Assembly: GCA_006226775.1 (NCBI GenBank)
Contig: SBGD01000065.1
Span: 1-58,287 of the forward strand
Direction of reading: 5' to 3'
Source: Paracoccaceae bacterium
GTDB lineage: Bacteria; Pseudomonadota; Alphaproteobacteria; Rhodobacterales; Rhodobacteraceae
DNA length: 58,287 bases
Position 1 is the stretch's first letter, and the number at the start of each line of letters is the position of its first letter. Made by a program: the position numbers and the translations under genes. Positions 25,262 to 42,341 of the stretch are shown piece after piece. Below the pieces are notes generated by a model. The model was given only the letters and a program-made list of their open reading frames with translations, was not told the DNA's origin and did not search any database.

Positions 25262-25270
25262 GCGCAGAGC

Positions 25271-26242: not shown

Positions 26243-26254
26243 GGAGCGCATGAT

Positions 26255-27250: not shown

Positions 27251-28541
27251 CGTGACGATGCCTCAGCTTGGCATGGCCCAGGACGCCGGGCGCCTGGTGG
27301 CCTGGCTCAAGGCGCCCGGCGCGCCGGTGACCCGCGGCGAGGCGCTCTTCGAGGTCGAGACCGACAAGGCAACCATGGAGGTCGAGGCCCAGGCCGACGG
27401 TTATCTGACCGCGGTTTCCGCCGCGGCGGGCGAGGATATCCCGGTCGGCGCGGTGATCGCCCGGATCAGCGAAAGCGTCGAGGAGGACGCGGCCCCGCCC
27501 GCCAAACCCGCACCCGCCGCCGAGACCTTGCCCATGGGCAAGCCGGTGACCATGCCGCAGCTTGGCATGGCGCAGGACAGCGGCATCCTGGTCAGTTGGC
27601 AGAAGGCGCCGGGCGAAGCGGTGGCGGCGGGGGATGTGCTCTTCGAGGTCGAGACCGACAAGGCCACCATGGAGGTCGAGGCCGGTCACGACGGCTGGCT
27701 CGCCGCGACCCTGGCCGAGGCGGGCGAGGCGGTGCCGGTCGGTGCCCCCGTGGCGATCATCAGTGCCGAAGCATCGGACGCCCCGGTGGCGCGGTCCATG
27801 GCGGAGGCGGCGAAGGCCGAGGCCCCGGCGGAAGAGCCCGACGCCAAACCCGACCCGAAACCCGCGCCCAAGCCTGCCCCGAAGACACCGCCGACCCCCG
27901 TGGCCAAACCCGCCCCGGGCGGCCCGGTGCTGGCCTCGCCCAAGGCGCGGCGGCTGGCGCTGGAACAGGGGCTGGATCTCGCGCGGCTGGTCGAGGCCGG
28001 CCATCCGCAGCCCTATCACGTCCGCGATCTCGAGGTGCTGCGCGCCCTGCCCGCGCCCTCCGCAGACACAAGCCCCACCCAAGCCAGCCGCCGCCTGCTG
28101 GCCGAGGTCGCCCGCGATGGCCTGCCGGAATTCGCCGCGTGGGCGGCAGAGACACACGGGCTGGAGGATGCCGACGCGCTGCTCGCCGGTCTTGCCGCGG
28201 CCTGCCTGCCGGACGCGGGGCTTGAGCCCGGCCCGGTGGCCGTCGAACGCCTGGGCCGGTCCCGCAGCTACCTGCTGCCCGCCAGCCGACAACTGGGCGC
28301 CATCACCGAAACCGACGCGCCCCCGGTGCTGGTGCTGCGCGACCTGCGCGGCACCGCGCTGCGCCAGGTCGAGATCGGCGGCGAGGCCACCCCGGTGCTG
28401 ACCCTGGCCCCCGGCGGGCCGGAGCGCGCGCTGACCCTCACCCTGGAATGCGCCGCCGCGGGGATGACGCCCGGCGCCGCGATCCAGCTTCTTTCCGACG
28501 TCGCGGGCCGGGTGGAGCAACCGCTCCGCCACCTGCTCTGA
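27240..28541 (+). CDS. Lipoyl-domain E2-like protein with two lipoyl domains and no catalytic motif
   Basis: A 433-residue scaffold and carrier subunit. Two lipoyl domains (about 4-78 and 102-175) each carry the lipoylation site ETDKATMEVEA (K43 and K141). A Pro/Ala/Lys-rich linker (about 185-228) leads to a peripheral-subunit-binding domain (about 231-268, LASPKARRLALEQGLDLARL). The last 160 residues keep the outline of an acyltransferase domain (PPVLVLRDLRGTALRQVEIG, TLTLECAAAGMTPGAAIQLL) but lack the HRxxxG active site. The acyltransferase itself seems to be supplied by the separate gene at 29995. The gene also contains one copy of the TTGCCCATGGGCAA palindrome. Confidence 0.88.
   Translation: MPHDVTMPQLGMAQDAGRLVAWLKAPGAPVTRGEALFEVETDKATMEVEAQADGYLTAVSAAAGEDIPVGAVIARISESVEEDAAPPAKPAPAAETLPMGKPVTMPQLGMAQDSGILVSWQKAPGEAVAAGDVLFEVETDKATMEVEAGHDGWLAATLAEAGEAVPVGAPVAIISAEASDAPVARSMAEAAKAEAPAEEPDAKPDPKPAPKPAPKTPPTPVAKPAPGGPVLASPKARRLALEQGLDLARLVEAGHPQPYHVRDLEVLRALPAPSADTSPTQASRRLLAEVARDGLPEFAAWAAETHGLEDADALLAGLAAACLPDAGLEPGPVAVERLGRSRSYLLPASRQLGAITETDAPPVLVLRDLRGTALRQVEIGGEATPVLTLAPGGPERALTLTLECAAAGMTPGAAIQLLSDVAGRVEQPLRHLL
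27527..27542. promoter_or_regulatory. Candidate parS site (palindrome copy 1, inside the lipoyl gene)
   Basis: CTTGCCCATGGGCAAG, a perfect 16-bp palindrome sharing the 14-bp core with copies at 33296, 39231 and 39290. It lies in the linker between the two lipoyl domains (codons for TLPMGK), about 10 kb from parB. ParB-type proteins often use several dispersed palindromes, so a partition site is the favoured reading. Confidence 0.45.
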
Positions 28542-28559
28542 CCCCTCCGGGAGACCGAC

Positions 28560-29984
28560 ATGGACCATACCGATCTCTATATCAACGGCGCCTGGCGCAA
28601 GACCGAAACGCGCTTCGACGTGATCAACCCCGCCACCGAGGCGGTGCTGGCCTCGGTTGCCTCGGCCGAGATCGCCGATGCCGATGCCGCGCTCGATGCC
28701 GCCGAGGCGGCGATGGCCGACTGGGCGGCGCGCAGCCCGCGCGCGCGCTCGGAGGTGCTGCGCCGCGCCTGGGAGTTGATGACCGCGCGGCTGGAGGATT
28801 TCGCCCGGCTGATCACCCTGGAAAACGGCAAGGCGCGCGCCGATGCCATGGGCGAGGCGACCTATGCCGCCGAGTTCTTTCGCTGGTTCGCCGAGGAGGC
28901 GGTGCGCGCCGATGGCCTGCTCACCCATGCCCCGGCCTCGGGCGCGCGCATCCTCGTGCAGCACAAGCCCGCCGGGCTTGCGGTGCTGATCACGCCCTGG
29001 AACTACCCCGCCGCCATGGGCACCCGCAAGATCGCCCCGGCGCTGGCCGCGGGCTGCGGCGTGATCATCAAGCCCGCCTCGGAGACGCCGCTGACCATGC
29101 TGGCGCTGATGCCGCTTCTCGAAGAGGCCGGCGTGCCGCCGGGGCTGGTCAACGTGCTGCCCTCGCGCCGGACCGGCGCGCTGGTCGATCACATGCTGCA
29201 TGATCCGCGGGTGCGGGTGGTCAGCTTCACCGGCTCGACCGGGGTGGGCCGCAAGCTGCTGAAAGGCGCCGCCGACCAGGTGCTGAAACCGGCGATGGAA
29301 CTGGGCGGCAATGCGCCCTGTATCGTCTTCGAGGATGCCGAGATGGAGACCGCCGTCGAGGGCACCATGCTGGCCAAGATGCGCAATCTCGGCGAGGCCT
29401 GCACCGCCGCCAACCGCATCTATGTCCATGCCGACATTGCCGAGGAGTTCACCCGGCGGCTGACCGGGCGGATGGCGGCGCTGAAGCTGGGCGATGGCAG
29501 CGACCCGGATGTCGATGTCGGCCCGCTGGTCAATGCCGAAACCCGCGACAAGGTGGCCGCTTTCGTCGCCGACGCGGTGGCCAGGGGCGCCCGGGTCGAA
29601 TGCGGCGGCACCACGCCCGAAGGCCCGGGGTTTTTCTACCCGCCGACGGTGCTGTCGAACGTGCCCGAGACCGCCGAGTGCGTGCATGACGAGATCTTCG
29701 GCCCGGTCGCCGCGATCCAGACCTTCACCGACCAGGAAGACGTGATCGCCCGTGCCAATGCCACCGAATACGGGCTGGTGGCCTATGTCTTCTCGGGCGA
29801 TTTCCGGCGCGCGCTGCAGGTCTGCGAGCGGCTGGATTACGGCATGGTGGGCCTCAACCGCGGGCTGGTCTCGGACCCGGCGGCGCCCTTCGGCGGCACC
29901 AAGCAATCCGGGCTGGGGCGCGAGGGCGGCCACGAGGGGATGCTGGAGTTCATGGAATCGCAATATATCTCGGCCAGCTGGTAA
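28560..29984 (+). CDS. NAD(P)-dependent aldehyde dehydrogenase (succinate-semialdehyde dehydrogenase-like)
   Basis: A 474-residue ALDH-superfamily enzyme that would oxidise an aldehyde to an acid. The general base E247 is in MELGGNAP and the nucleophile C281 in GEACTAANR. Cofactor motifs are TPWNYP (145-150) and FTGSTGVGRKL. It is closest by eye to GabD-like enzymes. It lies in the catabolic operon between the two halves of E2, 18 bases after the lipoyl protein gene. That position suits oxidation of the aldehyde released when E1 cleaves a hydroxyketone or diketone. Substrate is inferred, not shown. Confidence 0.92.
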   Translation: MDHTDLYINGAWRKTETRFDVINPATEAVLASVASAEIADADAALDAAEAAMADWAARSPRARSEVLRRAWELMTARLEDFARLITLENGKARADAMGEATYAAEFFRWFAEEAVRADGLLTHAPASGARILVQHKPAGLAVLITPWNYPAAMGTRKIAPALAAGCGVIIKPASETPLTMLALMPLLEEAGVPPGLVNVLPSRRTGALVDHMLHDPRVRVVSFTGSTGVGRKLLKGAADQVLKPAMELGGNAPCIVFEDAEMETAVEGTMLAKMRNLGEACTAANRIYVHADIAEEFTRRLTGRMAALKLGDGSDPDVDVGPLVNAETRDKVAAFVADAVARGARVECGGTTPEGPGFFYPPTVLSNVPETAECVHDEIFGPVAAIQTFTDQEDVIARANATEYGLVAYVFSGDFRRALQVCERLDYGMVGLNRGLVSDPAAPFGGTKQSGLGREGGHEGMLEFMESQYISASW

Positions 29985-29994
29985 GGAGGCAGAC

Positions 29995-30867
29995 ATGACA
30001 GACGTGATCGCCGCGCCCTCGGTCCGCGCGCTTGCCGCGCAAAAGGGCATCGACCTTGCCACCCTGGCGCGCGAGTTGGGACGCACCACCCTCGCCCGCG
30101 AGGATCTCGAGCGCAGCCCCGAGGCGCCCGCGGGCGACAGCGCCTTGTGGCAGGTCGACCACGGCGCCTTCGGCCCGGTCCGCGAGGAGGCGATGAGCCG
30201 CTTTGCCCGGCTTGCCGCGTCCAACCTGGCCGCCGCCAATGCGCTGATCCCGCAGGTCACCCACCACGACCAGGCCGAGATTGCCGCGCTCGAGGCGTTT
30301 CGCGCGTCCCTGCGCGCCGAGGCCGAGGCGCGCGGCGTCAAGCTTACCGCGCTGGCCTTTCACGTGCTGGCGCTGGCGCGCAGCCTGCGGGCCTTTGCAC
30401 GGTTCAATGCCTCGCTCAGCGCCGATGGCGCGACGCTGGTGCTGAAGGATTACGTGCACATCGGCATTGCCGTCGACACGCCGCACGGGCTGATGGTGCC
30501 GGTGATTCGCGACGTCGACCGCAAGGGGCTGTGGCAGATCGCCCGCGACATCGCCGACCTGGCCGCCCGCGCGCAGGCCCGCAAGATCGCGCCCGACGAG
30601 ATGGGCGGCGCCTCGATGACCGTCTCGTCGCTGGGCGGCATCGGCGGGCTGGGCTTCACGCCGATCGTCAACCCGCCGGAGGTCGCCATCCTCGGCATCA
30701 CCCGCGCGCAGGTCGTGACCCGCTGGGAGGGCGAGACGCCGCGCCCGGTGCCGGTGCTGCCGCTGGATCTGAGCTATGACCACCGCGTCATCAACGGCGC
30801 CGAGGCGGCGCGGTTCATGGCGCATTACGCCGGGCTGCTCGCCGATCCGCGCGGCCTCATGGTGTGA
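29995..30867 (+). CDS. E2-type acyltransferase lacking a lipoyl domain
   Basis: A 290-residue protein made of a peripheral-subunit-binding domain (about 6-40, APSVRALAAQKGIDLATLARELG) joined directly to a 2-oxoacid dehydrogenase acyltransferase domain (about 65-288). The active site is intact: LSYDHRVINGAEAARF with H263 and N267, where Asn is also found in Azotobacter-type pyruvate E2. HIGIAVDTPHGLMVPVIRD is the CoA-side motif. No lipoyl domain exists, so it must use the lipoyl groups of the protein at 27240. aaggaggc precedes ATG 29995. Its end overlaps the convergent ScpB-like gene by 11 bases. Confidence 0.9.
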   Translation: MTDVIAAPSVRALAAQKGIDLATLARELGRTTLAREDLERSPEAPAGDSALWQVDHGAFGPVREEAMSRFARLAASNLAAANALIPQVTHHDQAEIAALEAFRASLRAEAEARGVKLTALAFHVLALARSLRAFARFNASLSADGATLVLKDYVHIGIAVDTPHGLMVPVIRDVDRKGLWQIARDIADLAARAQARKIAPDEMGGASMTVSSLGGIGGLGFTPIVNPPEVAILGITRAQVVTRWEGETPRPVPVLPLDLSYDHRVINGAEAARFMAHYAGLLADPRGLMV

Positions 30868-31480
30868 GCCGGGCGCCCTGCCCCGGCGCGCCGGCGCCGA
30901 TCAGCCCGGCATCTTCCAATTGCTCGCGGTCGGGCAGGTCGTTGAGGCTTTCCAGCCCGAAGGCGGCGAGGAAGGCCTCGGTGGTGACAAAGGTATAGGG
31001 CGCGCCTCGGCGCGGTGCGCGCGGGCCGGTGCCGATCAGCCCGCGGGCATGCAGCCGCCCGATCAGGTCGCGGCTGATCTCCTTGCCGAAGACCTCCTTC
31101 AGCCCCTCGCGCGTGACCGGCTGGTAATAGGCGATGGCGGCCAGCACCGCGGTCTCATAGGATCCGAGGTCGAGCCCGAGGTCGCGCAGGTCCGCCGCCG
31201 CGCGGATCACCGGGCCATAGGCGGGCCGGGTGCGCAGGCCCCAGCCATCGTCGATGCGCGCCACCTCGTAGGGGCGATCGGCAAGGTCGGCGGCCAGGTC
31301 GTCGATCAGAAGGTCGACCGAGACCCCCTGCCCCACCACCCGCGCCAGATCGCGCCGCGCCACCGGCGTGGCCGAGGCAAAGAGCACCGCCTCGATCCGG
31401 CGCATCCATTCGCGCCAGCGCATCTCGGGCGGCAGATCGCCCAGCTCGCGGTCGAAATCTGCGCTGTCCTTCATGGTCAC
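30857..31480 (-). CDS. ScpB-like protein (SMC-ScpAB condensin subunit family)
   Basis: A 207-residue protein with the two winged-helix domains of ScpB: the first at about 25-95 (RIEAVLFASATPVARRDLARVVG), the second at about 105-175 (LGSYETAVLAAIAYYQPVTREGLKEVFGKEISRDLIGRL). Chromosomal ScpB binds ScpA and SMC in condensing DNA. This copy stands beside DUF1403, a tyrosine recombinase remnant and a plasmid-type Rep/Par module, with no smc or scpA, so it may be a replicon-specific paralogue. GTG 31480 overlaps the DUF1403 stop (GTGA); ATG 31474 is the alternative start. Confidence 0.85.
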   Translation of the reverse strand: MTMKDSADFDRELGDLPPEMRWREWMRRIEAVLFASATPVARRDLARVVGQGVSVDLLIDDLAADLADRPYEVARIDDGWGLRTRPAYGPVIRAAADLRDLGLDLGSYETAVLAAIAYYQPVTREGLKEVFGKEISRDLIGRLHARGLIGTGPRAPRRGAPYTFVTTEAFLAAFGLESLNDLPDREQLEDAGLIGAGAPGQGARLTP

Positions 31481-32352
31481 AGACCGTAAAGCCGGAAGGT
31501 GTCGCGCCCGGTCAACTCGCGCACCGCGCCGAGGCCGACCAGCCGGTCGCAGAGCCGCCGCGCCGCCCGGCCCGACATCACCCCGCTCAGCGCCGCCGCC
31601 GCCAGCGCATCGCTGGACAGAAACAGCGCCAGCGCCGGCGCGGCCCCCCGGGCGCGCAGCTTCGGCGCCACCGCGCCCAGCCGCGCGGCGCGGCGGGTCA
31701 GGTCATCGGCCAGGGTCAGGACCTCGCGCACCGCGCCGACAAGCGCGCGGTGGCAGGCGCCTTGCAGGTCGTCGCCGGATTTGCCCAGGTCACGCGCGGT
31801 GAGCCCCAGCGCCAGCAGCGGCAGCACATGCGACCAGCCCAAGCCCCGCGCCAGCGCCGCATCGGCGAGGATCAGCGCCTCGGCCCCGGCCCGCGGCTGA
31901 TCGGCGCGCATCGCCTCGAACACCTGGGCGGCGCGCGCCACCGGCGACCCCTGCCCTGCCGCCAGCCAGGCGGTGATCTGCTCGGGCGCATGATCGGGCA
32001 GCGCGCGGTGCAGTGCCTTGGCCGAGATCGGCCGCTCGACCGCGCGCATCCAGGAAAGACAGACCGCGCCCGCCGGGCCGGGCCGGTCGCCAGGCCGCAG
32101 CAGGTGCACCGCGTCGCGCAGATCCGCCGCCCGCTCGGGCCGTCCGGCGCGGGCCAGCCCCGCCTCGGCCGCCCGGAGTGCCAGCCTTTGACGCAAGAGC
32201 GCCAGCGGCAGATCCGGCGCGCGCAACACCAGGTGCAGATGGCCCAGCGCCGCACCGGCGCCAAAGACCGCATCGCCCTGCGGACCGGGCCGGGCGATCC
32301 AGTCGGGCAGAGGCGGCAGGGCCTCGGGGAAAGCGGGCGGAGCATATGTCAT
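31477..32352 (-). CDS. DUF1403 family protein
   Basis: A 291-residue mostly helical protein of the DUF1403 family, which I know from rhizobial and roseobacter plasmids next to scpB-like and integrase genes. Ala/Leu/Arg-rich helices cover most of it. The C-terminus SGRAARRLCDRLVGLGAVRELT, followed by GRDTFRLYGL, looks like a winged-helix with wing, so DNA binding is possible. It is coupled to the ScpB-like gene by a GTGA overlap. ATG 32352 was chosen; in-frame starts at 32370 and 32388 are possible, and none has a strong ribosome site. Biochemical role unknown. Confidence 0.8.
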   Translation of the reverse strand: MTYAPPAFPEALPPLPDWIARPGPQGDAVFGAGAALGHLHLVLRAPDLPLALLRQRLALRAAEAGLARAGRPERAADLRDAVHLLRPGDRPGPAGAVCLSWMRAVERPISAKALHRALPDHAPEQITAWLAAGQGSPVARAAQVFEAMRADQPRAGAEALILADAALARGLGWSHVLPLLALGLTARDLGKSGDDLQGACHRALVGAVREVLTLADDLTRRAARLGAVAPKLRARGAAPALALFLSSDALAAAALSGVMSGRAARRLCDRLVGLGAVRELTGRDTFRLYGL

Positions 32353-32475
32353 CCCACTAGGATAGCGCATGGCGGCGCTTTGTGCCACAATATACTGTGC
32401 GCAGCGCCGCCCTGCTGTGGTTTTCGTGACGTCCGATAATTGCCAGGGCCGCGCAGGGGCGCTAGGCTGGTCGGC

Positions 32476-33285
32476 ATGAGCGCTTCACCCGATCCTCCCG
32501 CCGCCTCTGCCCGCAACACGCGCAAGGCCTACGCCGCCGACTGGGCGCATTTCACCCGCTGGTGCCGGATGCAGGGCGAGGCGCCGCTACCGCCGCGCCC
32601 CGATCTGATCGCGCGCTACCTCGCCGCGCTGGCCGCGCCCCCGCGCCCGCTGTCACGCGCCACGATCGAGCGGCGGCTCTCGGGCCTGGCCTGGAACCTC
32701 GCGCAGCGCGGCCTGCCGCTGGACCGCGGCGCGCCGGAGATTGCCGCCACCCTGCACGAGATCCGCCGCGCGCTCGACCGCCCGCCCGCGCGCAAGGAAG
32801 CGATCACGGACGCTGAGGTCCGCGCCATGGCGGGGACTCTGGCCTATGACCTGCGCGGGTTGCGCGACCGGGCGATCCTGTTGATCGGCCATGCCGCCGG
32901 GCTGCGGCGCTCCGAGATCGTCGGCCTTGACCTGCGCCAGGCCGAGGCTGCCGATGCGCAGGGCTGGGTCGAGATCGGCGCCACCGGCCTGCTGCTGCAC
33001 CTGGCCGGCGGGCGCGAGGTTTCGATCCCGCGCGAAGCGGTGAAAGCCACCTGCCCGGTCGAGACGCTCGAGCGCTGGCTGGGCTTTGCCCAGATCACCG
33101 CCGGCCCGGTGTTCCGCCGCACCACCCGCGACGGCAAGCGGGTGATGCCGGGGCGGCTGAACGACCGGCATGTCGCCCGGCTGGTCAAGAAGACGGTGCT
33201 GGCCTCGGGCATCCGCGCCGACCTGGCCGAGCCCGAGCGGCTGGCGCTGTTCTCGGGCCAGTCCCTGCGGGCAAGAAGGCGCTGA
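32476..33285 (+). pseudogene. Tyrosine recombinase, C-terminally truncated
   Basis: A 269-residue XerC/D-like integrase with a SAM-like N-terminal core-binding domain (about 10-105) and most of the catalytic domain. The first catalytic Arg is R144 (AAGLRRSEIVGL). The frame ends at LFSGQSLRARRR. In relatives this box reads GHSLRAG and is followed by about 50 residues carrying the His/Trp and the Tyr nucleophile. Here the box His is Gln262 and everything after R265 is missing, so strand cleavage is not expected. It is divergent from DUF1403. The reading frame stops 9 bases before a palindrome copy. Probably a decayed gene; a DNA-binding-only role remains possible. Confidence 0.8.
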
Positions 33286-33293
33286 GCGGCGAA

Positions 33294-33311
33294 AATTGCC
33301 CATGGGCAATT
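33294..33311. promoter_or_regulatory. Candidate parS site (palindrome copy 2)
   Basis: AATTGCCCATGGGCAATT, an 18-bp perfect palindrome, between the broken recombinase and the convergent sensor-kinase gene, 3.7 kb upstream of parA. Same 14-bp core as the copies at 27528, 39231 and 39290. Confidence 0.55.
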
Positions 33312-33316
33312 CCGGC

Positions 33317-35287
33317 TCAGGGTCCGGCCCGGTCCGGCTCCGCCAGCGGCAGCCAGACGGTGAATTCCGCGCCGCCGCGCGCCCGGTTGCGGACACTGAT
33401 GAGGCCCCCCGCCCGCTGGATCAGGGTCTGCGAGATCGACAGGCCCAGCCCGGTGCCCTCGCCCCGCTTGGTGGTGAAGAAGGGATCGAAGACGCTGTTG
33501 CGCACCGCCTCGGGCACCCCTGGCCCGGTGTCGGACACCCGCAGGCAGACGCCCGCCGCGCCGTCGCGCTCCTCTTCGCGCAGGCCGAGGGTCAGGCGCC
33601 CGCCCTGCCCCATCGCCTGAACCGCGTTGACGATCAGGTTGACGACCACCTGCTGCATCTCGCCCGGCGCAATCGCGACCGGCGGCACCGGCTCCAGCTG
33701 GGTTGCGACCGTCACCTCGGCCTTGCCGATCACGTGGTCGACCAGCACCAGGCAATCCTCGACCACCGATGCCAGGTCGGCGCCGCCATCAAGCGCCTCC
33801 ATCTCGCCGGGGGCGGCGAATTTCAACAGCTTGCCGACAATGGCCTGGATGCGCCCGACCTGGGCATCGATGAGGTTCAACTCGGTCTCGACCGGCTGCG
33901 CCGCCTCGCCCAGCAATTCGCGCACCAGGTCGAGATTGCCCTGGATCACCGCCACCGGGTTGTTGATCTCATGCGCGACCCCGGCGGTGATCTCGCCGAT
34001 CGAGGCCAGTTTCTCGCTCATCACCAACTGCCGGAAGGTCTGTTCCAGCTTGGCATTGGCCGCGCGCAGTTCGGCGGTGCGCGCATCAACACGGGTGTTG
34101 AGCTGGTCGGCATGATCGCGCAGCCGCCGGTCGCGGTCCTGCACCTGGTCGAGCAGGTCGTCGAGATGGCCGGCCACGGCGGCAATCTCGTCGCGCCGTT
34201 TCATCGGGCCGAGGCGGGCGGAAAGATCGCCCTGCCCGACCCGCGCCATGGTCTGGGTCATGCGTTCCAGCGGCGCGAAGATCCCCCCCGCCATCCACAG
34301 AAACACCGGCGCCGAGAGCAGGAGCACCGCGAAAAAGGCGCCGAGGCTCCACAGCAGGGCGGCGCGTTTGGCGGCGGTGAAGGGCGCCTCGAGAAAGCCG
34401 ACATAGAGCATCCCGACCCGCGCGCCGAAGCTGTCGCTCAGCGGCATGTAGGCGGAAATATACCAGTCGTTCACCACGAAGGCCCGGTCGAGCCAGGTCT
34501 GGCCCTGCCCCAGCACCGCGCCGCGCACCGCCGCCGAGACCCGCGTGCCCAGCGCGCGCACATCCTCGAACAGCCGGACATTGGTGCTGATCCGCACATC
34601 GTCCAGAAACAGCGTCGCCGTGCCCTGCCGCGCGCCGCCGGTGACGGCGTTGAGGTAGACCAGCGCGTTGATCTCGTCGATGAACCCGAGGTTGCGGTTG
34701 AGCAGGATGCCGCCCACCAACACGCCCTCGTGCCCGGGCAGCGTCACCGGGCTGGCCGAATGCACCACCATGCCGCGGTCTTCGACCTCGCGCATTGTGG
34801 GCACCGCGGCCTCGGTGGCGATCAGCGGAATGCGCGCCTGTGCGGCCAGGTCGCCGGGCAGCGCGGCGAGCCTCTCGGCGGGGAAGATGTCGATGCGGGT
34901 CTCGGGCCGGGCCAGCCCGGCGGCGATCACCGGCCAGCGCGCGGCTTCCGGCTCGGCCCTCTCGCGGGGCAGGTAGTAGAGAAAATCGAGCCCCAGCGCC
35001 GCCTGCCGCGCTCGGAAGAAAGCGGCGGGCTCACCCGCTTGCAGCACCTCGGCGAAGGCCACCGATCCGGCCAGCCCGTGCAATTCCTCGCCGGTGCCGG
35101 TCATCAGGCGGTTGAGGTATTGCTCGGCGATCCGCAGGTCGCTTTCGACATTGGCGATCAGCACCTTGTCGTAATCCGCGCTCCAGCGGGTGACACCCAG
35201 CACCAGCACAAGCGGCATCAGCACGATCAGCGGCGCCAGCGCCAGGATCAGCAGGCGCAGCCGCACGGATTCCATCGGGGATGTCAT
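33317..35287 (-). CDS. Membrane sensor histidine kinase (double-Cache, HAMP, HisKA, HATPase)
   Basis: A 656-residue sensor kinase. Membrane helix one is at about 11-32. A periplasmic Cache-like sensor (about 33-305) contains IARPLI-like and SASPVTLPGHEGVLVGGILL stretches. Helix two is at about 312-333, then HAMP (335-390) and a coiled coil. The H-box GVAHEINNP has phospho-acceptor H439. The ATPase has N-box NLIVNAVQAMG, G1 SDTGPGVP, F-box DPFFTTK and G2 GTGLGLSIS. No receiver domain. The nearest response regulator gene is at 56172 at the end of the formate dehydrogenase operon, a plausible partner although 21 kb away. ATG 35287 was taken; an internal ATG at 35275 is possible. Confidence 0.88.
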   Translation of the reverse strand: MTSPMESVRLRLLILALAPLIVLMPLVLVLGVTRWSADYDKVLIANVESDLRIAEQYLNRLMTGTGEELHGLAGSVAFAEVLQAGEPAAFFRARQAALGLDFLYYLPRERAEPEAARWPVIAAGLARPETRIDIFPAERLAALPGDLAAQARIPLIATEAAVPTMREVEDRGMVVHSASPVTLPGHEGVLVGGILLNRNLGFIDEINALVYLNAVTGGARQGTATLFLDDVRISTNVRLFEDVRALGTRVSAAVRGAVLGQGQTWLDRAFVVNDWYISAYMPLSDSFGARVGMLYVGFLEAPFTAAKRAALLWSLGAFFAVLLLSAPVFLWMAGGIFAPLERMTQTMARVGQGDLSARLGPMKRRDEIAAVAGHLDDLLDQVQDRDRRLRDHADQLNTRVDARTAELRAANAKLEQTFRQLVMSEKLASIGEITAGVAHEINNPVAVIQGNLDLVRELLGEAAQPVETELNLIDAQVGRIQAIVGKLLKFAAPGEMEALDGGADLASVVEDCLVLVDHVIGKAEVTVATQLEPVPPVAIAPGEMQQVVVNLIVNAVQAMGQGGRLTLGLREEERDGAAGVCLRVSDTGPGVPEAVRNSVFDPFFTTKRGEGTGLGLSISQTLIQRAGGLISVRNRARGGAEFTVWLPLAEPDRAGP

Positions 35288-35388
35288 ACGCCGACCCTAG
35301 CGAGGGCGCGCGGGGCTGTCACGCCGGACGCCCGCGCGAGATGAGCCCGGCCGGGAGGGGCGGGAACAGGGCGCCCTGCCCTGTCGGC

Positions 35389-36408
35389 TCAGATCGGGTT
35401 CTTCTCGGCAAAGCTGCGGAAGAACGCCAGGAACGCCCGGTCGGGATCGCGCGCCGGCTCCTTGCCCTTGGCCCAGTCGCGCCATTCGCCCTCGACGTGA
35501 TAGATGTCATAGCCGGGATGGCGCAGCCGCGCGGTCTCGTAGGTTTCCGAGCGCAGCGCCTCGCCCCGCGATTGCAGCCAGACCGGCCGCGGCTTGGCCT
35601 CGGGCACCAAGGGCTCGTCCTTGCCGGTCATCCGCGCCTTGCGCCCGACCTTGGAAAAGGTCAGTTCCCGCTCGGCCTGGGCACTTGTGCCGCTGTCCTT
35701 GCGCCACCAGCGCAGCTCGACATGGGTCACGCGGCGGCCGGTCTTGATCGGCTCGATCTCGACCATGTAGTCGCTCAGCGCATTGACCTCGACCACCGCC
35801 GGATCGATCGCCCGCAGCTTGAGGTTCGACCACGACGTCAGTTTGCCCTTGGCCACGCCGAGGATGCCGCGCAGGTCATCGAGGCTGAAGCGTTCCGACG
35901 AGCGATACCGCAGGTTCCCGCGCTTCTGGATCATCTCGTAAAGCGTCAGCGCGTATTTCGACGACAGCGCGAACATCACCTCGCGTTGCAGCCGCGCAAA
36001 GACCGTGCTGTCCTTGATGATCCGCCGCAGCCGCTGCGGGATCTCGTATTCCAGAAGCCCGTCGCGCCGCGTCGTCTCGATATTGCCGCCCAGAAGCTGC
36101 ACCCGCTCGATCGCCTCCTCGCCGTCGCGCGTCACCCGTACCTTGACGATCGACGACATCAGACGCTCGACGCTTTCGCCGACCCGGTCGTTGGAATTGT
36201 GCGAGCCGCGCAGGTCGGCCTTGGCGATCACATGGGTCACCGGCTTGTCGATGGCGTCCCAGGCGTTTTCCAGAAGCTGGTTGTAGATCCGCCGGTCGGC
36301 CAGGGTCAGCGGCGTGACCTCGACAAGGTCGACCAGCTCCCCGGGCTTGACGAGGCTTTCGGCATTTGGCCGCGCCTCGATGGTGCGGTATGGTTTTCCT
36401 GTGGCCAC
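35389..36408 (-). CDS. Plasmid-type replication initiator (Rep_3 / RepB-like winged-helix initiator)
   Basis: A 339-residue initiator with tandem winged-helix domains. The first (about 30-170) opens with LVEVTPLTLADRRIYNQLLENAW. The second (about 180-270) contains EVMFALSSKYALTLYEMIQKRG, ERFSLDDLRGILGV and LKLRAIDPAVVEVN, typical of Rep_3 iteron-binding initiators. The C-terminal 80 residues are charged. Translation begins at GTG 36408. It is transcribed away from a 620-bp region full of iterons and opposite to parAB, the classic layout of an iteron plasmid. Overlapping inverted iteron half-sites next to its start suggest autoregulation. The exact replicon type within Rhodobacterales is not assigned. 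Confidence 0.85.
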   Translation of the reverse strand: MATGKPYRTIEARPNAESLVKPGELVDLVEVTPLTLADRRIYNQLLENAWDAIDKPVTHVIAKADLRGSHNSNDRVGESVERLMSSIVKVRVTRDGEEAIERVQLLGGNIETTRRDGLLEYEIPQRLRRIIKDSTVFARLQREVMFALSSKYALTLYEMIQKRGNLRYRSSERFSLDDLRGILGVAKGKLTSWSNLKLRAIDPAVVEVNALSDYMVEIEPIKTGRRVTHVELRWWRKDSGTSAQAERELTFSKVGRKARMTGKDEPLVPEAKPRPVWLQSRGEALRSETYETARLRHPGYDIYHVEGEWRDWAKGKEPARDPDRAFLAFFRSFAEKNPI

Positions 36409-36426
36409 TTGCGTTACCTGACTGCT

Positions 36427-36440
36427 CTTACTTTTGTAGG
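36427..36440 (-). promoter_or_regulatory. Inverted iteron half-site at the rep start
   Basis: The minus-strand sequence caaaagtaag (36436-36427) resembles the iteron core cgaaacgtaag and lies about 20 bases upstream of the rep GTG. A degenerate forward copy, gggcgtaaggtatc, follows at 36446. Iteron-type initiators commonly bind such inverted half-sites as dimers to repress their own gene. Confidence 0.5.
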
Positions 36441-36480
36441 CCTTCGGGCGTAAGGTATCAAAGCCCGGCCCCCGCGTCCA

Positions 36481-36693
36481 TCACCCGAAACGTAAGGTTT
36501 GAGACCGGGGATCGCGGAGGGGTGATTCGCAACGCCCTGCCCTGCAAGGCTTTTTTCCGCGGTTTTTCCGCCCTGTGGCCCTCACCCGAAACGTAAGGTT
36601 TGAGCCCCGCCCGATTCGTAAGTCGAGCCGCCCCGAAGCGTAAGTCTTGCCATCCCCAAGCGTAGGCCAAGCCGTCCCGATAGGTAAGCGCAG
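36481..36693 (+). repeat. Iteron array
   Basis: Two identical 23-bp copies (tca + cccgaaacgtaaggtttgag) lie at 36481-36503 and 36582-36604. Four degenerate copies with the core cccga-NNcGTAaG follow, starting at 36610, 36632, 36654 and 36676, an exact 22-bp spacing that puts them on the same helical face. This is the expected binding array for a Rep_3 initiator. Confidence 0.85.
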
Positions 36694-36822
36694 GGGAGAA
36701 AAGCCCAAGGCTTCCAAGGGATTGTCCGGGCCGAACAGGGAATCCTAGAATCCAGAACATAGGGGTTTTTCATTTTTGGGTTTCGGGGGAGGTTTGCCCC
36801 CAAGAGACCGGCGCGCTTAAAG

Positions 36823-36851
36823 CCCCGAAGCGTTACACTTACTTTTGGGGT
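36823..36851. promoter_or_regulatory. Head-to-head iteron pair upstream of parA
   Basis: A forward degenerate iteron cccgaagcgttac (36824-36836) faces an inverted one (ccccaaaagtaag on the minus strand, 36850-36838). The pair lies about 180 bp upstream of parA. It mirrors the half-site next to rep and may let the initiator also repress parAB, or mark the origin boundary. Confidence 0.5.
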
Positions 36852-37030
36852 GGTTGGCCGCGCGCGAGCAAGGCAGAGTTCGGAAATCCCGGGACCAGGC
36901 GGCATATTCCCGGCATTTTGCAACATCCCGTCAAATTCCGCTTTTTTCGGTGCTCTGCGCAAAACTTCGCACTTGAGACCCCTGCCCGCAGGGTCCATGA
37001 TTCGCGCAAACCACCCTTGAGAGGTAGGAT

Positions 37031-38233
37031 ATGGAGCAGTCAGCCCTTCCCCCCGTGACATTGCGCGAGCTTGACCAATTGTCGACCCGCGCCTCGACCG
37101 TGATCGCGCGCCTGCGCGACCGGCTCTATGCGCCCGGCACCGAGAAGCAGCTTGAGCTGCGTTTCAACGTCCGCCGCGCCGCCGAGATGGTGGGCCGCAG
37201 CGAAAAGGCGATCCGCGATGCCGAGGCCGATGGCCGCCTGCCCGAACCCGAGAAAGACCCCGACACCGGGCGGCGCACCGGCTACAGCCTGACCGACGTC
37301 AACCGGATGCGCCAGGTCTTCGGCACCCTGCCGCACCGCGCGCCGGGCGATCCGGCGATGGTGCTGGCGGTGCAGAACTTCAAGGGCGGTGTCGGCAAGT
37401 CGACCACGGTCTGCCACCTGGCGCAATTCCTCGCGCTCAAGGGCTACCGGGTCTGCGTCATCGATTGCGACAGCCAGGCCTCGACCACCTCGATGTTCGG
37501 GCTGAACCCCGATGTCGACGTCGACGAGGACGAGGATACGCTTTATCCCTTCTTCCGCCATGGCGGGCCGCCCGATCTCAGCTATGCGCTGCGGGCGACC
37601 TATTGGCCGAATATCGCGCTGATCCCCGCCAACCTCGGGCTTTATGACGCCGAGTATGAATTCGCCGCCCGCATGGCGCGCGAGCAGGCCTTTGTGCTCG
37701 ACCGGCTGCGCCACGGCATCGAGACCATCAAGGACCGCTTCGACATCATCCTGCTCGATCCGCCCCCGGCGCTGGGGATGCTGTCGCTCTCGGTGCTGCG
37801 CGCGGCCGAGGCGCTGATCATCCCGGCCCCGCCGAACAACATCGATTTCGGCTCCACCGCGCATTTCCTCAAGATGCTGGGCGCGACGCTGAACGAACTG
37901 GCCGCCGCCGGCGGCGCGCGCGATTATGCTTTTGTTAAAATTCTCGCGACAAAGATGAACGACACGAAATCGGCGCATGTCGCCATCAAGCGGATGATGG
38001 ATGCGGTGTTCCCGATGGACATGTTGCTTGCCGTACAGAAGGACAGCGCCGAGATCGACAATGCCACCGCCAATCTTTCCACCGTCTACGAACTTACCGG
38101 CGCGGCCACGCGGACCGAGACGCACAAGCGCTGCCGCGCCTATCTCGATGCCGTGGGGCGCGAGATCGAGACGCTGATCCGCAAGACCTGGCCCAGCCAT
38201 CATGCGCAATTGCGCAAGGAAGGAGTGCTATGA
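37031..38233 (+). CDS. parA: ParA-type partition ATPase with N-terminal DNA-binding domain
   Basis: A 400-residue partition ATPase of the larger type Ia class. The N-terminal 105 residues include a MerR/HTH-like region (FNVRRAAEMVGRSEKAIRDAEADGRL) for operator binding. The deviant Walker A is NFKGGVGKSTT (116-126). CVIDCDSQASTT and IILLDPPPALGMLSLSVL are the A' and B motifs. A gaggtaggat site precedes ATG 37031. It is divergent from rep across the origin, and its stop overlaps the parB start (ATGA). It should segregate the replicon with ParB and parS. Confidence 0.93.
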   Translation: MEQSALPPVTLRELDQLSTRASTVIARLRDRLYAPGTEKQLELRFNVRRAAEMVGRSEKAIRDAEADGRLPEPEKDPDTGRRTGYSLTDVNRMRQVFGTLPHRAPGDPAMVLAVQNFKGGVGKSTTVCHLAQFLALKGYRVCVIDCDSQASTTSMFGLNPDVDVDEDEDTLYPFFRHGGPPDLSYALRATYWPNIALIPANLGLYDAEYEFAARMAREQAFVLDRLRHGIETIKDRFDIILLDPPPALGMLSLSVLRAAEALIIPAPPNNIDFGSTAHFLKMLGATLNELAAAGGARDYAFVKILATKMNDTKSAHVAIKRMMDAVFPMDMLLAVQKDSAEIDNATANLSTVYELTGAATRTETHKRCRAYLDAVGREIETLIRKTWPSHHAQLRKEGVL

Positions 38234-39219
38234 CCCGCAAACACGATGCGATCTTCGACGATGTCCTCTCGGGGCTCGACGCGCCTGCGCCCGCCGACGA
38301 ACGGGCCGGTGCCAGGTTTCTCAAACGCACCAGCGCGATTTCCGAGCGCATGTCGGGCGAGCTGGAGGAAAAGACACTGCGCTGGATCGACCCGGCGCGC
38401 TGCCGGATGTGGGACCGGCACAACCGCGAATACGCGCTGCTCAACGAAGAGAACTGCCGCGACCTGATCGACGGCATCCGCAGCCAGGGGCGGCAGGAAT
38501 TCGCCGCCATCGTGCGGGCCTCGGCGGACCCGGCCTACGATTACGAGGTGATCTGCGGCGCGCGGCGGCATTTCGCGGTCAGCTGGCTGCGCGCCAACAA
38601 TTACACCCAGTTCAAGTACCTGGTCGAGGTCCGCGATCTTTCCGACGAAGAGGCCTTTCGCCTGGCGGATATCGAGAACCGCGACCGCGAGGATATCTCC
38701 GACTACGAGCGCGCCATCGACTATGCTGACGCGGTCGAGCGCTATTACGGCGGCAAGCAGAAGGCCATGGCCGAGCGGCTGGAGGTCTCGCAGCCCTGGC
38801 TCTCGCGCTACCTGCAACTGGCGAAACTGCCCGCGGCGATTGTCGCGGCCTTCCCCACGGTGCGCGACATCCGCGAGCGCAATGCGCGCGAGTTGAAGCC
38901 GCTGCTGGCCGATGCCGAGGCCGCGGCGCGGATCACCGAGGAGGCCGGCGCCATCGCGCGCGAGCAGGCCCAGGCGCGGCAGGGGCGCGGCGCCTATCTC
39001 GACGGGGTGGCGGTGATGCGGCGGCTGCTGCGGGCAGGCAGACCCGCGCAGGCCAAGGCGCCGCCCGAGGGCAAGGTCTATCGCCGCAGCGGCGCCGAGC
39101 GCGGCATCGAGGTGCGCCAGAAGGGCCGCAAGGTGGTGATGGAATTCGAGGATTCCCTGTCGCGCCCGCAGCTCGAGGCGGCCTTCTTGGCCTACCTCAA
39201 GGACCGGTTCCCGGCCTGA
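38230..39219 (+). CDS. parB: ParB-type centromere-binding protein
   Basis: A 329-residue partition protein. After an N-terminal ParA-contact region, the ParB/Srx-like domain (about 70-150) includes LNEENCRDLIDGIRSQGRQE and VICGARRHFAVSWL, where GxRRH is the nucleotide-binding box. ENRDREDISDYERAIDYA leads into the helix-turn-helix QKAMAERLEVSQPWLSRYLQLAKLP (about 175-200). The C-terminal 50 residues would dimerise. Translationally coupled to parA. Two copies of a 14-bp palindrome lie within 85 bases of its stop and are the best parS candidates. Confidence 0.92.
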   Translation: MTRKHDAIFDDVLSGLDAPAPADERAGARFLKRTSAISERMSGELEEKTLRWIDPARCRMWDRHNREYALLNEENCRDLIDGIRSQGRQEFAAIVRASADPAYDYEVICGARRHFAVSWLRANNYTQFKYLVEVRDLSDEEAFRLADIENRDREDISDYERAIDYADAVERYYGGKQKAMAERLEVSQPWLSRYLQLAKLPAAIVAAFPTVRDIRERNARELKPLLADAEAAARITEEAGAIAREQAQARQGRGAYLDGVAVMRRLLRAGRPAQAKAPPEGKVYRRSGAERGIEVRQKGRKVVMEFEDSLSRPQLEAAFLAYLKDRFPA

Positions 39220-39230
39220 TCTCGGGGAAA

Positions 39231-39244
39231 TTGCCCATGGGCAA
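39231..39244. promoter_or_regulatory. Candidate parS site (palindrome copy 3)
   Basis: TTGCCCATGGGCAA, a perfect 14-bp palindrome 11 bases after the parB stop codon. Location next to parB is typical for centromere-like sites of type I partition systems. Confidence 0.6.
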
Positions 39245-39254
39245 GACCGCCGCC

Positions 39255-39276
39255 GTCCCGGCCTTGCGCCGGGACC
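39255..39276. repeat. Single-hairpin copy of the CCCGGA-type dispersed repeat
   Basis: Stem gtcccggc / gccgggac around cttgc, followed by ctcatgg. It matches one half of the paired repeat seen at 25207, 41711, 48589 and 55003, including the flanking acctcat motif. It lies between two parS candidates. Confidence 0.6.
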
Positions 39277-39289
39277 TCATGGCCGTCGC

Positions 39290-39303
39290 TTGCCCATGGG
39301 CAA
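39290..39303. promoter_or_regulatory. Candidate parS site (palindrome copy 4)
   Basis: TTGCCCATGGGCAA again, 59 bases after copy 3 (start to start), just ahead of the tup promoter region. Confidence 0.6.
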
Positions 39304-39454: not shown

Positions 39455-40159
39455 ATGGTCGATATCTGGAGCGGTCTGGCCCAGGCCTTCTGGCTGGTCA
39501 TCACGCTCGACGCGGAACTGGTGGAAATCGCCCTGCGCTCGTTGCAGGTGACGCTGAGCGCGCTGGTGATCGCCAGCCTCATCGCCCTGCCGCTGGCCGC
39601 CTTGCTGGCGGTGCGCCGCTTTCGCCTCCGCCGCACGGTGATTGCACTCTTGAACGCGCTGATGGGGTTGCCGCCGGTGGTGGTGGGGCTGATCGTCTAT
39701 GTCTTCCTGTCGCGCTCGGGGCCCTTCGGCGTGCTCGGGCTGCTCTTTACCCCCACCGCGATGATCATCGCGCAGGTGATCATCATCGTGCCGCTCATCG
39801 CCTCGGTCGCGCATCAGTCGATCCGCGATCTCTGGCAGGAGTACCATGACCTGCTGATCTCGATGAACGTCACCCAGGGCCAGAAGATCCGCACCCTGCT
39901 CTGGGACAGCCGCCGCGCGCTGCTCACCGCCTCGCTCGCCGGCTTCGGCCGGGCGATCGGCGAGGTCGGCGCGATCATGATCGTCGGCGGCAATATCGAC
40001 CATGCCACCCGGGTGCTGACCACCGCCATCGCGCTGGAGACCGGCAAGGGCAATTTCGCCCTCGCGCTGGCGCTGGGCTTCGTGCTGATCGGGCTGGCCA
40101 TCGCCGTCAACCTCGCCATTCACGCCCTCGGCCAGACCGAGCGGGAGGGGCGCTGGTGA
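39455..40159 (+). CDS. tupB: Tungstate ABC transporter permease TupB
   Basis: The inner-membrane channel of a tungstate importer, 234 residues with five or six membrane helices. The permease loop FGRAIGEVGAIMIVGGNI (about 166-183) is the EAA-type ATPase contact and matches Tup permeases. LMGLPPVVVGLIVYVFLSRSGPFG is another family segment. It is first in a three-gene operon with overlapping starts and stops. Next to a molybdo/tungsto-formate dehydrogenase cluster the substrate is most likely tungstate; molybdate cannot be excluded from TupB alone. Confidence 0.9.
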   Translation: MVDIWSGLAQAFWLVITLDAELVEIALRSLQVTLSALVIASLIALPLAALLAVRRFRLRRTVIALLNALMGLPPVVVGLIVYVFLSRSGPFGVLGLLFTPTAMIIAQVIIIVPLIASVAHQSIRDLWQEYHDLLISMNVTQGQKIRTLLWDSRRALLTASLAGFGRAIGEVGAIMIVGGNIDHATRVLTTAIALETGKGNFALALALGFVLIGLAIAVNLAIHALGQTEREGRW

Positions 40160-40869
40160 TGCAATTGTTCCCCGTCAGGTTGACCGATGCGCGCGCCACG
40201 CGGCGCGGCAAGACGCTGGTCGGGCCGGTGGACCTGGTGCTGGGCGGGCAGGGGACGACGGTGGTGATCGGCCCCAATGGCGCCGGCAAGACCACCTTCC
40301 TGCGCATGCTGCACGGCACCGCGCGGCTGGGCTCGGGGCGCATCGACTGGCACTGCGGCACCGAGGAAGCGCGCCATCACCAGTGTTTCGTCTTCCAGCA
40401 GCCGGTGATGCTGCGGCGCACGGTGCTGCAGAACCTGGTCTATCCGCTGCGCCTGCGCGGCGTGGCGCGGGCCGAGGCCGAGGCGCGTGCGCGCGACTGG
40501 GCGGCGAAGGTGGGGCTGTCGGAGATGCTCGACCGCCAGGCGCCGGTGCTCTCGGGCGGCGAGCGGCAGAAGCTGGCGCTGGCCCGCGCCATGATCACCG
40601 CGCCGCAGCTCTTGTTTCTCGATGAGCCCTGTGCTTCGCTCGACGGGCGCGCCATGCGCGAGATCGAGGAGCATCTGCAAGAGGCCCGCGCCGCCGGAAT
40701 GCGGCTGATCCTGTCGACCCATGACATGGGCCAGGCGCGGCGGCTGGCCGACGAGGTGCTTTTCCTGCTGCACGGCAAGGTGCATGAACATGCCCCGGCC
40801 GAGCATTTCTTCACCCATCCTGCAACGGCCCAGGCACGGGCCTTTCTCAACGGAGATATCGTCGAATGA
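40156..40869 (+). CDS. tupC: Tungstate ABC transporter ATP-binding protein TupC
   Basis: A 237-residue ATPase: Walker A GPNGAGKTT (about 37-45), Q-loop in CFVFQQPVMLRR, signature LSGGERQKLALARAM (about 131-145), Walker B LLFLDEPCASLD and H-loop LSTHDMGQ. GTG 40156 overlaps the tupB stop (GTGA); ATG 40159 is the alternative one codon later. It ends with an ATGA overlap to tupA. It lacks the C-terminal TOBE/molybdate-binding domain of ModC, which fits Tup-type ATPases. Confidence 0.9.
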   Translation: MMQLFPVRLTDARATRRGKTLVGPVDLVLGGQGTTVVIGPNGAGKTTFLRMLHGTARLGSGRIDWHCGTEEARHHQCFVFQQPVMLRRTVLQNLVYPLRLRGVARAEAEARARDWAAKVGLSEMLDRQAPVLSGGERQKLALARAMITAPQLLFLDEPCASLDGRAMREIEEHLQEARAAGMRLILSTHDMGQARRLADEVLFLLHGKVHEHAPAEHFFTHPATAQARAFLNGDIVE

Positions 40870-41675
40870 AACACCTGATCCTGAGTATCGCACTCGCCCT
40901 CGGCGGCACCGCCGTCGCGGCGGCGGAGACCATGAAGATGGCGGTCACCACCTCGTTCCACAACTCCGGCCTCTCGGAGGTGCTGCTGCCGCAGATCGCC
41001 GAGGACCTGGGCATCGAGGTGCAATTGCTGGTGGTCGGCACCGGCCAGGCGCTGCGGCTGGGCGAGGCGGGCGATGTCGATGCCATCCTGGTGCATTCCC
41101 GCGCCGCCGAGGAGGCCTTCGTCGCGGGCGGCTACGGCACCCATCGGCGCGAGATCATGTACAACGATTTCGTCTTTGTCGGCCCCGAGGACGACCCGGC
41201 AGAGACCGCCAGTGCCGCCAGCGCCACCGAGGCGCTGCAGAAGATTGCCGAGGCCGAGGCCGATTTCGTCTCGCGCGGGGATGACAGCGGCACCCACAAG
41301 AAGGAGCTGAGCCTCTGGACCGAGGCCGGCCTCGATCCGACCGCCCTGGGCGACTGGTACAAGCCGGTCGGCGCGGGCATGGGGGCCGCGCTCAATACCG
41401 CGGCGGGCATGGGGGCCTATATCCTGTCGGACCGGGCCAGCTGGCTGAACTTCGGCAACAAGACCGGGATGGCGCTGACCTATGCCGGCGATCCGGTGCT
41501 GTTCAACCAGTATGCCTATCTGCCGGTGAACCCGGATCTGCACGCCCATGTGAAGACCGACCTGGCGATGCAGCTGGAGGAGTGGCTGGTGTCGGACACC
41601 GCCAGGGCGCTGATCGACGGCTACAGGATCAATGGCGAGACGCTGTTTGTCTTCAATGCCGAGGCGGGGGAATAG
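40866..41675 (+). CDS. tupA: Tungstate-binding periplasmic protein TupA
   Basis: A 269-residue binding protein with a signal peptide (MKHLILSIALALGGTAVAAA, cleavage about residue 20). Family features are VTTSFHNSGLSEVLLPQIAED, where the T-T-S loop contacts the oxyanion, GTGQALRLGEAGDVDAILVHS, MYNDFVFVGP and SRGDDSGTHKKELSLW. These separate TupA from ModA. It delivers tungstate to TupBC. The repeat pair after its stop may act as a bidirectional terminator toward the convergent gene at 41835. Confidence 0.92.
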   Translation: MKHLILSIALALGGTAVAAAETMKMAVTTSFHNSGLSEVLLPQIAEDLGIEVQLLVVGTGQALRLGEAGDVDAILVHSRAAEEAFVAGGYGTHRREIMYNDFVFVGPEDDPAETASAASATEALQKIAEAEADFVSRGDDSGTHKKELSLWTEAGLDPTALGDWYKPVGAGMGAALNTAAGMGAYILSDRASWLNFGNKTGMALTYAGDPVLFNQYAYLPVNPDLHAHVKTDLAMQLEEWLVSDTARALIDGYRINGETLFVFNAEAGE

Positions 41676-41710
41676 CGGGGCAGGGCATCCCGATAAGTAA
41701 GAGACGCCGA

Positions 41711-41777
41711 AGCCCCGGACTTGCTCTGGGGCCTCACGGCCCACGTCGCCCAGGAGGCCCCGGATCAGGTCCGGGGC
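41711..41777. repeat. Paired-hairpin dispersed repeat between convergent genes
   Basis: gccccggacttgctctggggc and gccccggatcaggtccggggc in inverted relation, separated by ctcacggcccacgtcgcccaggag. It occupies the space between tupA and the convergent DUF6505 gene, where it could stop transcription from both sides. Other copies are at 25207, 39255, 48589 and 55003. Confidence 0.75.
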
Positions 41778-41834
41778 GAATGTCGCGCGGATGCTCGCGT
41801 CGGGTCGGAACCGGACATCCGCGGTCCGCGAGGC

Positions 41835-42341
41835 TCACCCCTCGTCCAGCGACCCATGGATGGCGAATTGCTCCAGCCCCGCCTCCTGCGCCTCGATCAC
41901 GCGAAACGTCTCGCGCACCCCGGCCTCGGTCAATTCCCGCGCGACGGTCAAGAGCGTGTTGGGTGCGTGGTCCTCGCAGAGCTCTGCCATATGGGCGATT
42001 TCCTCGGCGGCCACGGGCGTCGCGGCCTCCACCGAGGGCGCGCCGTAGTAGCTGACGAAATGCGCCGCAAGCGCCTCGGTCAGCCGCGCCACTTCCTCGG
42101 GCTGCGCCTCGGTCACGGCGACAAAGGTCACCCGGCCGAAGGTCTCCAGCCCCAGCCAGCCATTGGCAAAGGCCTGCCGCGCCTTGCCGGTCAGGTCGCC
42201 GCCGGACCAGTTGGAAAACTCGAATCCGCCCGAGACGCACCATTCGCCGGTGCGCGCGGGCGAGGCATAGACGCGCATGTCGCTTTCATCGAAATGGATC
42301 GCGCGCGCCAGTTTCGTGGCCAATTCCGTGGCCTGTGTCAT
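41835..42341 (-). CDS. DUF6505 family protein
   Basis: A 168-residue soluble protein that I match to the DUF6505 family, seen beside formate dehydrogenase and Mrp genes in Rhodobacterales. It contains AIHFDESDMRVYASPARTGEWCVSGGFEFSNW and EEIAHMAELCEDHAPNTLLTVARELT. No known catalytic motif. It is last in a four-gene leftward operon (DUF6494, mrp, DUF4444, DUF6505), coupled to the previous gene by ATGA. Association with Fe-S and cofactor genes suggests an accessory role in enzyme maturation, which is inference. Confidence 0.75.
   Translation of the reverse strand: MTQATELATKLARAIHFDESDMRVYASPARTGEWCVSGGFEFSNWSGGDLTGKARQAFANGWLGLETFGRVTFVAVTEAQPEEVARLTEALAAHFVSYYGAPSVEAATPVAAEEIAHMAELCEDHAPNTLLTVARELTEAGVRETFRVIEAQEAGLEQFAIHGSLDEG

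Follow-up and report, generated by a model that had tools for sequence, protein, structure and literature searches.

Plasmids and chromids of the RepB-III type in the Roseobacteraceae, represented here by pSD118 of Sulfitobacter guttiformis (NC_019364.1) and by pDSM107133_h, combine a Rep_3 initiator with divergently oriented rep and parAB genes, and both of these are closed circular replicons. The photosynthesis plasmid of S. guttiformis has been typed as RepB-III (excerpts of PMC6052148 and PMC6739100), and photosynthesis genes do lie beside rep on pSD118; in the excerpted table of PMC9025767, pDSM107133_h is entered as a RepB-III chromid. Integration of a large plasmid is also on record in this family: the available part of PMC13386836 describes the plasmid-rich strain Sulfitobacter pontiacus CB2047, in which nanopore reads verify that a 280-kb plasmid with partition genes has inserted at a locus associated with rrn and runs on into the chromosome. 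Finally, some replicons of Paracoccus and Pseudorhodobacter carry dnaG and rpoD on a molecule filed as a plasmid, but these are of megabase size; in our search, six large replicons matched DnaG over 80% or more of its length, five from Paracoccus and one from Pseudorhodobacter turbinis. The 1.46-Mb ‘plasmid’ pFER4 of Paracoccus ferrooxidans (L153), for example, bears dnaG, rpoD, ligA, recG and a cysteine-tRNA ligase gene.

In the 58,287-bp stretch analysed here (the window; contig SBGD01000065.1), a RepB-III replication and partition module shares one contig with dnaG and rpoD, which distinguishes it from the closed circles of pSD118 and pDSM107133_h. As in S. pontiacus CB2047, plasmid-type DNA with partition genes is continuous with chromosomal DNA, although the border in the window stands beside a DUF1353 gene and comes from a draft only. 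It is probable, if well short of certain, that a composite, low-copy RepB-III plasmid has merged into the chromosome beside the dnaG-rpoD block. A stronger proposition is that the module is an active origin and centromere of the molecule that holds the cell's only dnaG and rpoD, be it a chromosome with two working initiation systems or a plasmid-type replicon that is the sole home of the primase and the housekeeping sigma factor; this we hold tentatively, and are inclined to doubt.

The window is the whole of contig C86 in a draft genome (G000) of 4,581,071 bp and 104 contigs, whose listed completeness is 100% and contamination 1.29. We take the source to be Marinovum or its group, within the marine Roseobacter group; three of the genomes compared with it (Marinovum algicola FF3, here G003, together with G001 and G002) belong to the same genus. 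Genes in the window were called by a self-trained codon score and then scanned against Pfam and NCBIfam.

The replication and partition module

The module and its predicted binding sites comprise the following features.

33296-33309: candidate parS copy, TTGCCCATGGGCAA, at the left edge of block C; homology to the rep-bearing contig of FF3 begins at 33293
35389-36408 (-): Rep_3-family initiator of RepB-III type (Rep3_N and Rep3_C, Pfam, over cut-off)
36427-36840: iteron origin region, with a 22-bp array at 36610-36697 and outlying copies at 36484, 36585 and 36824
37031-38233 (+): ParA, a RepA/SopA-like partition ATPase (best NCBIfam match TIGR03453, 277 bits, under the model cut-off of 348)
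38230-39219 (+): ParB (TIGR00180, over cut-off), with a SopB-type HTH (SoPB_HTH)
39231-39244 and 39290-39303: two candidate parS copies, TTGCCCATGGGCAA, 3' of parB
27528-27541: parS-like palindrome, exact TTGCCCATGGGCAA, within a lipoyl-protein gene; function uncertain

All of the parts that the sequence-only reading had placed on the same DNA as dnaG and rpoD (rep, iterons, ParA, ParB and parS-like palindromes) were recovered. Its replication and partition core, given as 30857-39303, holds these parts from 33296 onward; the remainder, 30857-33285, is instead occupied by scpB, a DUF1403 gene and a weakly matched recombinase.

The initiator shares 93.5% identity with the Rep of M. algicola FF3 and 84.5% with that of pSD118, and so stands close to a typed RepB-III Rep, an assignment made by identity. 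Its gene diverges from parA-parB with the iterons between them, as is usual for RepB-III replicons: pSD118 and pDSM107133_h have the same divergent arrangement, as do all 77 loci having all three genes among 80 related Rep loci. These loci (L051-L130) are the best 80 of 174 relatives, all retrieved through two short peptide patterns, and thus form no census; each includes at most 10 kb of flanking DNA per side, often less, and many are ended by contig ends.

The iterons form direct repeats near rep in helical register, as expected of an iteron plasmid. Allowing up to one mismatch, CCCGANNCGTAAG occurs six times in the window, five of them at 36484-36688, between rep and parA; shuffles of the whole window gave 0.85 matches on average, and none of 100 reached six. 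Starts at 36610, 36632 and 36654 keep a 22-bp spacing, with a fourth CCCG at 36676, and the GTAAG register of the repeats is preserved in FF3 and G035. GC skew was tried as an origin marker and set aside, since its cumulative minimum falls at 45 kb in the window, away from the origin, and at 37 kb on the FF3 contig, where rep is at 55-56 kb.

ParA is 400 aa long, with an N-terminal extension that places the start of its ATPase domain at residue 111, and ParB shares 65.0% identity with the ParB of pDSM107133_h. Together with the HTH of ParB and a candidate parS to which binding is predicted, these features describe what we take to be a type Ia system. The palindromes, too, outnumber the chance expectation. 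Whereas 0.08 matches to TTGCCNNNNGGCAA would be expected by chance (100 shuffles), the window has four, and the four copies of TTGCCCATGGGCAA at 27528, 33296, 39231 and 39290 are the only ones in the 4.58-Mb genome. FF3 has three, all on its rep-bearing contig; G001, G002, G012 and G035 have none, and a reversed control pattern was absent from all six genomes.

Of the Rep loci, 72 were eligible for a count at parB, and 69 of these have TTGCC-N4-GGCAA no more than 400 bp 3' of that gene; at rep, the site is found no more than 150 bp 3' of the gene in 45 of the 78 eligible loci (eight of the 80 were ineligible for the former count and two for the latter), with further sites elsewhere in some loci. 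The commonest N4 cores are AATT (62) and CATG (39). Seven other stretches, totalling 319,318 bp and excluding those of the FF3 contig and of G035, contained no such site. We propose TTGCC-N4-GGCAA as a candidate centromere (parS) consensus of the RepB-III group, and even if the merger is not real, this comparison yields a conserved candidate sequence.

The copy at 27528 falls inside block B (see below), in a linker that joins two lipoyl domains of the encoded protein. It is absent from the 46 kb of plasmid pMaD4 compared, where the same place differs by eye at 4 of 14 positions; because four point changes from that sequence would suffice, a chance origin is possible. A functional site there would link block B with the replicon's partition system.

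The module appears intact and constrained. Values of dN/dS relative to FF3 come to about 0.12 (Rep), 0.055 (ParA) and 0.14 (ParB; the FF3 sequence used here ended before its stop codon), as against 0.086 for rpoD and 0.19 for dnaG. Amino-acid changes unique to the window or to FF3, polarized with four outgroups, number 1 vs 2 in Rep, 4 vs 4 in ParA and 2 vs 3 in ParB. By these measures the three proteins are under purifying selection without acceleration, and decay is not indicated; a recent merger would, however, give the same picture. Because dS for rep, parA and parB (0.37-0.72) is similar to that for rpoD and dnaG (0.47-0.66), the replicon seems to have diverged from its FF3 counterpart about as long ago as the chromosome did, which suggests shared descent and not a recent arrival.

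In a search of 61 genomes (the source genome and 60 others), 15 had a Rep match at an E value of 0.001 or better, and close copies were confined to FF3 (93%) and G035 (71%). Within the genus, G001 has weak matches only (best 28%) and G002 none; the source genome itself has two further weak matches, on contigs C67 and C59. A 419,840-bp Fluviibacterium contig (L076, G063:C15) has two apparent Rep_3-like genes, at 112007 and 307222, with 79% and 33% identity to the window Rep, and is possibly a cointegrate.

The border between chromosomal and plasmid-type DNA

The left half of the window, together with the block that holds the module, is divided as follows.

1-14169: block A, chromosomal; gdh (truncated 5' where the contig ends), a TadG-like gene, dnaG, rpoD, DLH (-), UPF0047 and DUF1353
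4998-6959: dnaG (gene call and profile scans)
7075-9060: rpoD (gene call and profile scans)
14170-14423: border from chromosomal to plasmid-type DNA, a 254-bp intergenic stretch beside the DUF1353 gene
14424-15403 (+/-): YkuD L,D-transpeptidase gene (+) and a small gene (-), matching pMaD9
15507-30883: block B; sugar ABC operon, SDRs, M24 peptidase, PDH-like E1 alpha/beta, lipoyl protein, aldehyde dehydrogenase and E2
33,293-57,502: block C, matching the rep-bearing FF3 contig

Block A is collinear, with gaps, with contigs G001:C2 and G002:C3, and its gdh, dnaG and rpoD match a 3.56-Mb contig (G012:C3) that by its size is plainly a chromosome. In FF3, a 534-kb contig (G003:C43) matches dnaG-rpoD and a short stretch downstream. 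To the right of the block-A counterpart, G002 continues with a gene for a class I tRNA synthetase, probably ileS, and FF3 with a ThrRS-type gene. In the window, homology to G001:C2 stops at 14121 and that to G002:C3 at 14102, while homology to pMaD9 begins at about 14423; judged by synteny, the DNA thus turns from chromosomal to plasmid-type within a 254-bp interval, after 14,169 and before 14,424. The sequence-only reading had started the plasmid-type DNA at about 30.9 kb, and comparison with relatives moves this border to about 14.2-14.4 kb, some 16.5 kb leftward.

For the DNA between 14.42 and 57.5 kb, the nearest counterparts that we found belong to plasmids or to a contig that bears rep. 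The stretch 14423-15297 is 80.7% identical to pMaD9 (CP010864.1), a closed plasmid of 98,626 bp from M. algicola DG 898, and 81% identical to G003:C18. Positions 24800-30867 of block B align over 98% of the query, at 79.0% DNA identity, to closed plasmid pMaD4 of the same strain (CP010859.1, 187,673 bp), and for the rest of the block the annotated gene order of pMaD4 agrees, by order only, unaligned. Block B as a whole is collinear with G002:C7 over its full length and with G018:C2 in three pieces, and its right part matches the end of an FF3 contig with a RepABC-type RepA (G003:C50). The PDH-like and aldehyde dehydrogenase genes at 24800-30900 also recur on Roseobacter plasmids more widely, with 18 plasmid records having at least 80% of the stretch.

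Block C matches the FF3 contig (C54, NZ_FNYY01000016.1, a 116,025-bp draft contig that is not closed, with rep at 54973-55989) in two stretches, one running up to 61.3 kb and the other from 80.9 to 96.6 kb. The two share a backbone of parS, histidine kinase, rep, parAB, tup and formate dehydrogenase genes, but FF3 has about 19.5 kb extra between tup and the formate dehydrogenase cluster, and its contig lacks dnaG as well as any rpoD match of at least 45% identity. Nothing in the stretches compared corresponds to the right end of the window, 57,525-58,287.

The first 95 bp of the window, inside gdh, overlap exactly with the end of another contig of the same assembly (C25, 5,183 bp), which over about its last 3.5 kb matches, with gaps, the chromosomal contig G002:C3. 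An overlap of this kind suggests contigs in the style of a k-mer graph.

Integration, capture or misassembly

The simplest history would be integration of the plasmid downstream of the dnaG-rpoD block, and among the three options raised by the sequence-only reading (an integrated plasmid, an unusual replicon with essential genes, or two replicons joined in assembly) it is the best supported, though from one side only. In its favour are the collinearity of block A with chromosomal contigs and of blocks B and C with plasmid or rep-bearing DNA, the single dnaG match of the genome, the overlap with C25, the lack of any N, the single-copy join stretches and the precedent in S. pontiacus. Rep is predicted to bind the 22-bp iterons that separate rep from parA, and could fire there; ParB would load on TTGCC-N4-GGCAA, with ParA moving the ParB-bound DNA, and within a chromosome the module would form a second origin and a second centromere. 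Iteron plasmids restrain their own firing through Rep-mediated pairing of iterons, and for this reason the second origin would probably be tolerated. The sequence-only reading supposed that such a second system must be silenced or tolerated, as may be the case; its sequence shows no decay. Such a merger would be an event of a known kind, met here in what looks like a real and informative state, with an intact second origin and a candidate centromere on the DNA that bears the one dnaG detected. Mergers of plasmids and chromosomes are one possible route to chromids and to chromosomes with multiple origins; if this one is real, the strain keeps the plasmid origin and centromere intact, and the firing of a plasmid origin within a chromosome becomes testable.

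Several observations weigh against integration. One side of the merger is all that the draft assembly offers: the left flank is chromosomal, but the last 101 bases of the contig have no partner contig, and a return to chromosomal DNA is not seen. The border is marked by no tRNA (the window has no tRNA gene, and only one of the 80 Rep loci has one), and no transposase was found among the window proteins scanned, with no dedicated IS search made. Intact and constrained rep-par genes would be expected of a free replicon no less than of a recent insertion. In addition, G002:C7 is a 274-kb contig with no RepABC-type RepA over the cut-off, and block B may for that reason be chromosomal in G002.

Were the contig instead a separate replicon, a RepB-III chromid that captured dnaG and rpoD from a chromosome that then lost them, the cell could not lose it. 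The molecules of 1.46-2.24 Mb that carry dnaG-rpoD in Paracoccus and P. turbinis demonstrate that replicons with these essential genes exist, and a search for dnaG in the source genome gave a single match, in the window, and not the second copy on another molecule that would have marked this one as a duplicate (a second rpoD was not searched for). The intact, constrained rep-par genes and the confinement of all four exact copies of TTGCCCATGGGCAA to this contig also accord with capture, as does the composition of the plasmid side, which resembles that of the chromosome: tetranucleotide correlations among six stretches of the genome are 0.83-0.91 and do not separate chromosomal from plasmid parts; dnaG and rpoD are core genes, which a chromid would carry on a separate replicon. 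Yet the idea that Paracoccus chromids use the Rep type of the window failed, this type being found in none of the five large dnaG-rpoD replicons searched (of the six listed), and neither dnaG nor rpoD turns up in the covered flanks of any of the 80 Rep loci. Moreover, integration explains the data by one event, whereas capture needs both transfer and loss, and we regard capture as unlikely.

The remaining option, that an assembler joined chromosome and plasmid, gains something from the 104 contigs of the draft, from the warning in the available part of PMC13386836 that draft assemblies can misassign contigs in plasmid-rich lineages, and from FF3, in which three separate contigs hold dnaG-rpoD, the right-hand portion of block B, and block C; the finer mosaic of the window would take several joins. 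Against it, the contig contains no N, and neither join stretch (14,100-15,560 and 30,600-33,500) has a near-identical second copy in the genome, where the longest other matches span 180 bases (69% identity) and 209 bases (74%). If the contigs derive from a k-mer graph, as the 95-bp end overlap suggests, a false join would need a repeat. Block edges fall at or near gene ends, and the accessory genes to the left of the module recur beside parB-parA-rep in two other loci. A false join is accordingly disfavoured and the least probable of the three. The sequence-only reading had also asked where dnaA and the rRNA operons lie: one DnaA match over the cut-off is on contig C1, and a search for 16S rRNA found none in this genome, from which we draw nothing, as its control worked in only 9 of 14 genomes.

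Accessory genes and cargo

The remaining genes, on either side of the module, are listed below.

30857-31480 (-): scpB (Pfam)
31477-32388 (-): DUF1403 gene (Pfam)
32440-33285 (+): tyrosine recombinase (Pfam match under cut-off, weak)
33317-35275 (-): Cache-HAMP histidine kinase beside rep (Pfam; in 12 of 80 Rep loci)
39455-57524: cargo; tungstate-type ABC transporter tupBCA, then DUF6505-BPL-Mrp-Fer4 and a formate dehydrogenase cluster with a sigma-54 response regulator

The stretch from scpB to the recombinase is best taken, from its neighbourhoods elsewhere, for an accessory module of plasmids. In 2 of the 80 loci (L117 and L122) the whole trio is found on the parB side of parB-parA-rep, and in L126 the recombinase alone is. 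Salipiger abyssi pPABY2 has the gene order repA-repB-repC-DUF1403-scpB. Related copies of the scpB/DUF1403 stretch in FF3 lie about 3.6-7.9 kb from a RepABC-type RepA on C28, C47, C50 and C52; on C21 and C40 such a copy stands close to the start of the contig, and no RepA of this type is listed in its vicinity; in G001 a related copy is about 21 kb from a RepABC-type RepA, by coordinates. DUF1403 matches 433 plasmid records, none of them over more than 80% of its length. The DUF1403-ScpB pair (30857-32388) is also an instance of a ScpB-like part of condensin carried by plasmids. Site-specific integration by the tyrosine recombinase was considered and rejected: its Pfam match is below the cut-off, and since the gene is near parB in L117, L122 and L126 too, it looks like part of the backbone.

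The cargo recurs in a minority of the Rep loci. With at least 40% identity required across more than half of the protein, the histidine kinase is present in 12 loci, tupB in 11, tupC and tupA in 10 each, and DUF6505, BPL and Mrp in 9 each; because many loci end at a contig end or at the 10-kb flank, these counts are minima. That a tungstate-type transporter accompanies a formate dehydrogenase cluster suggests an enzyme that uses tungsten.

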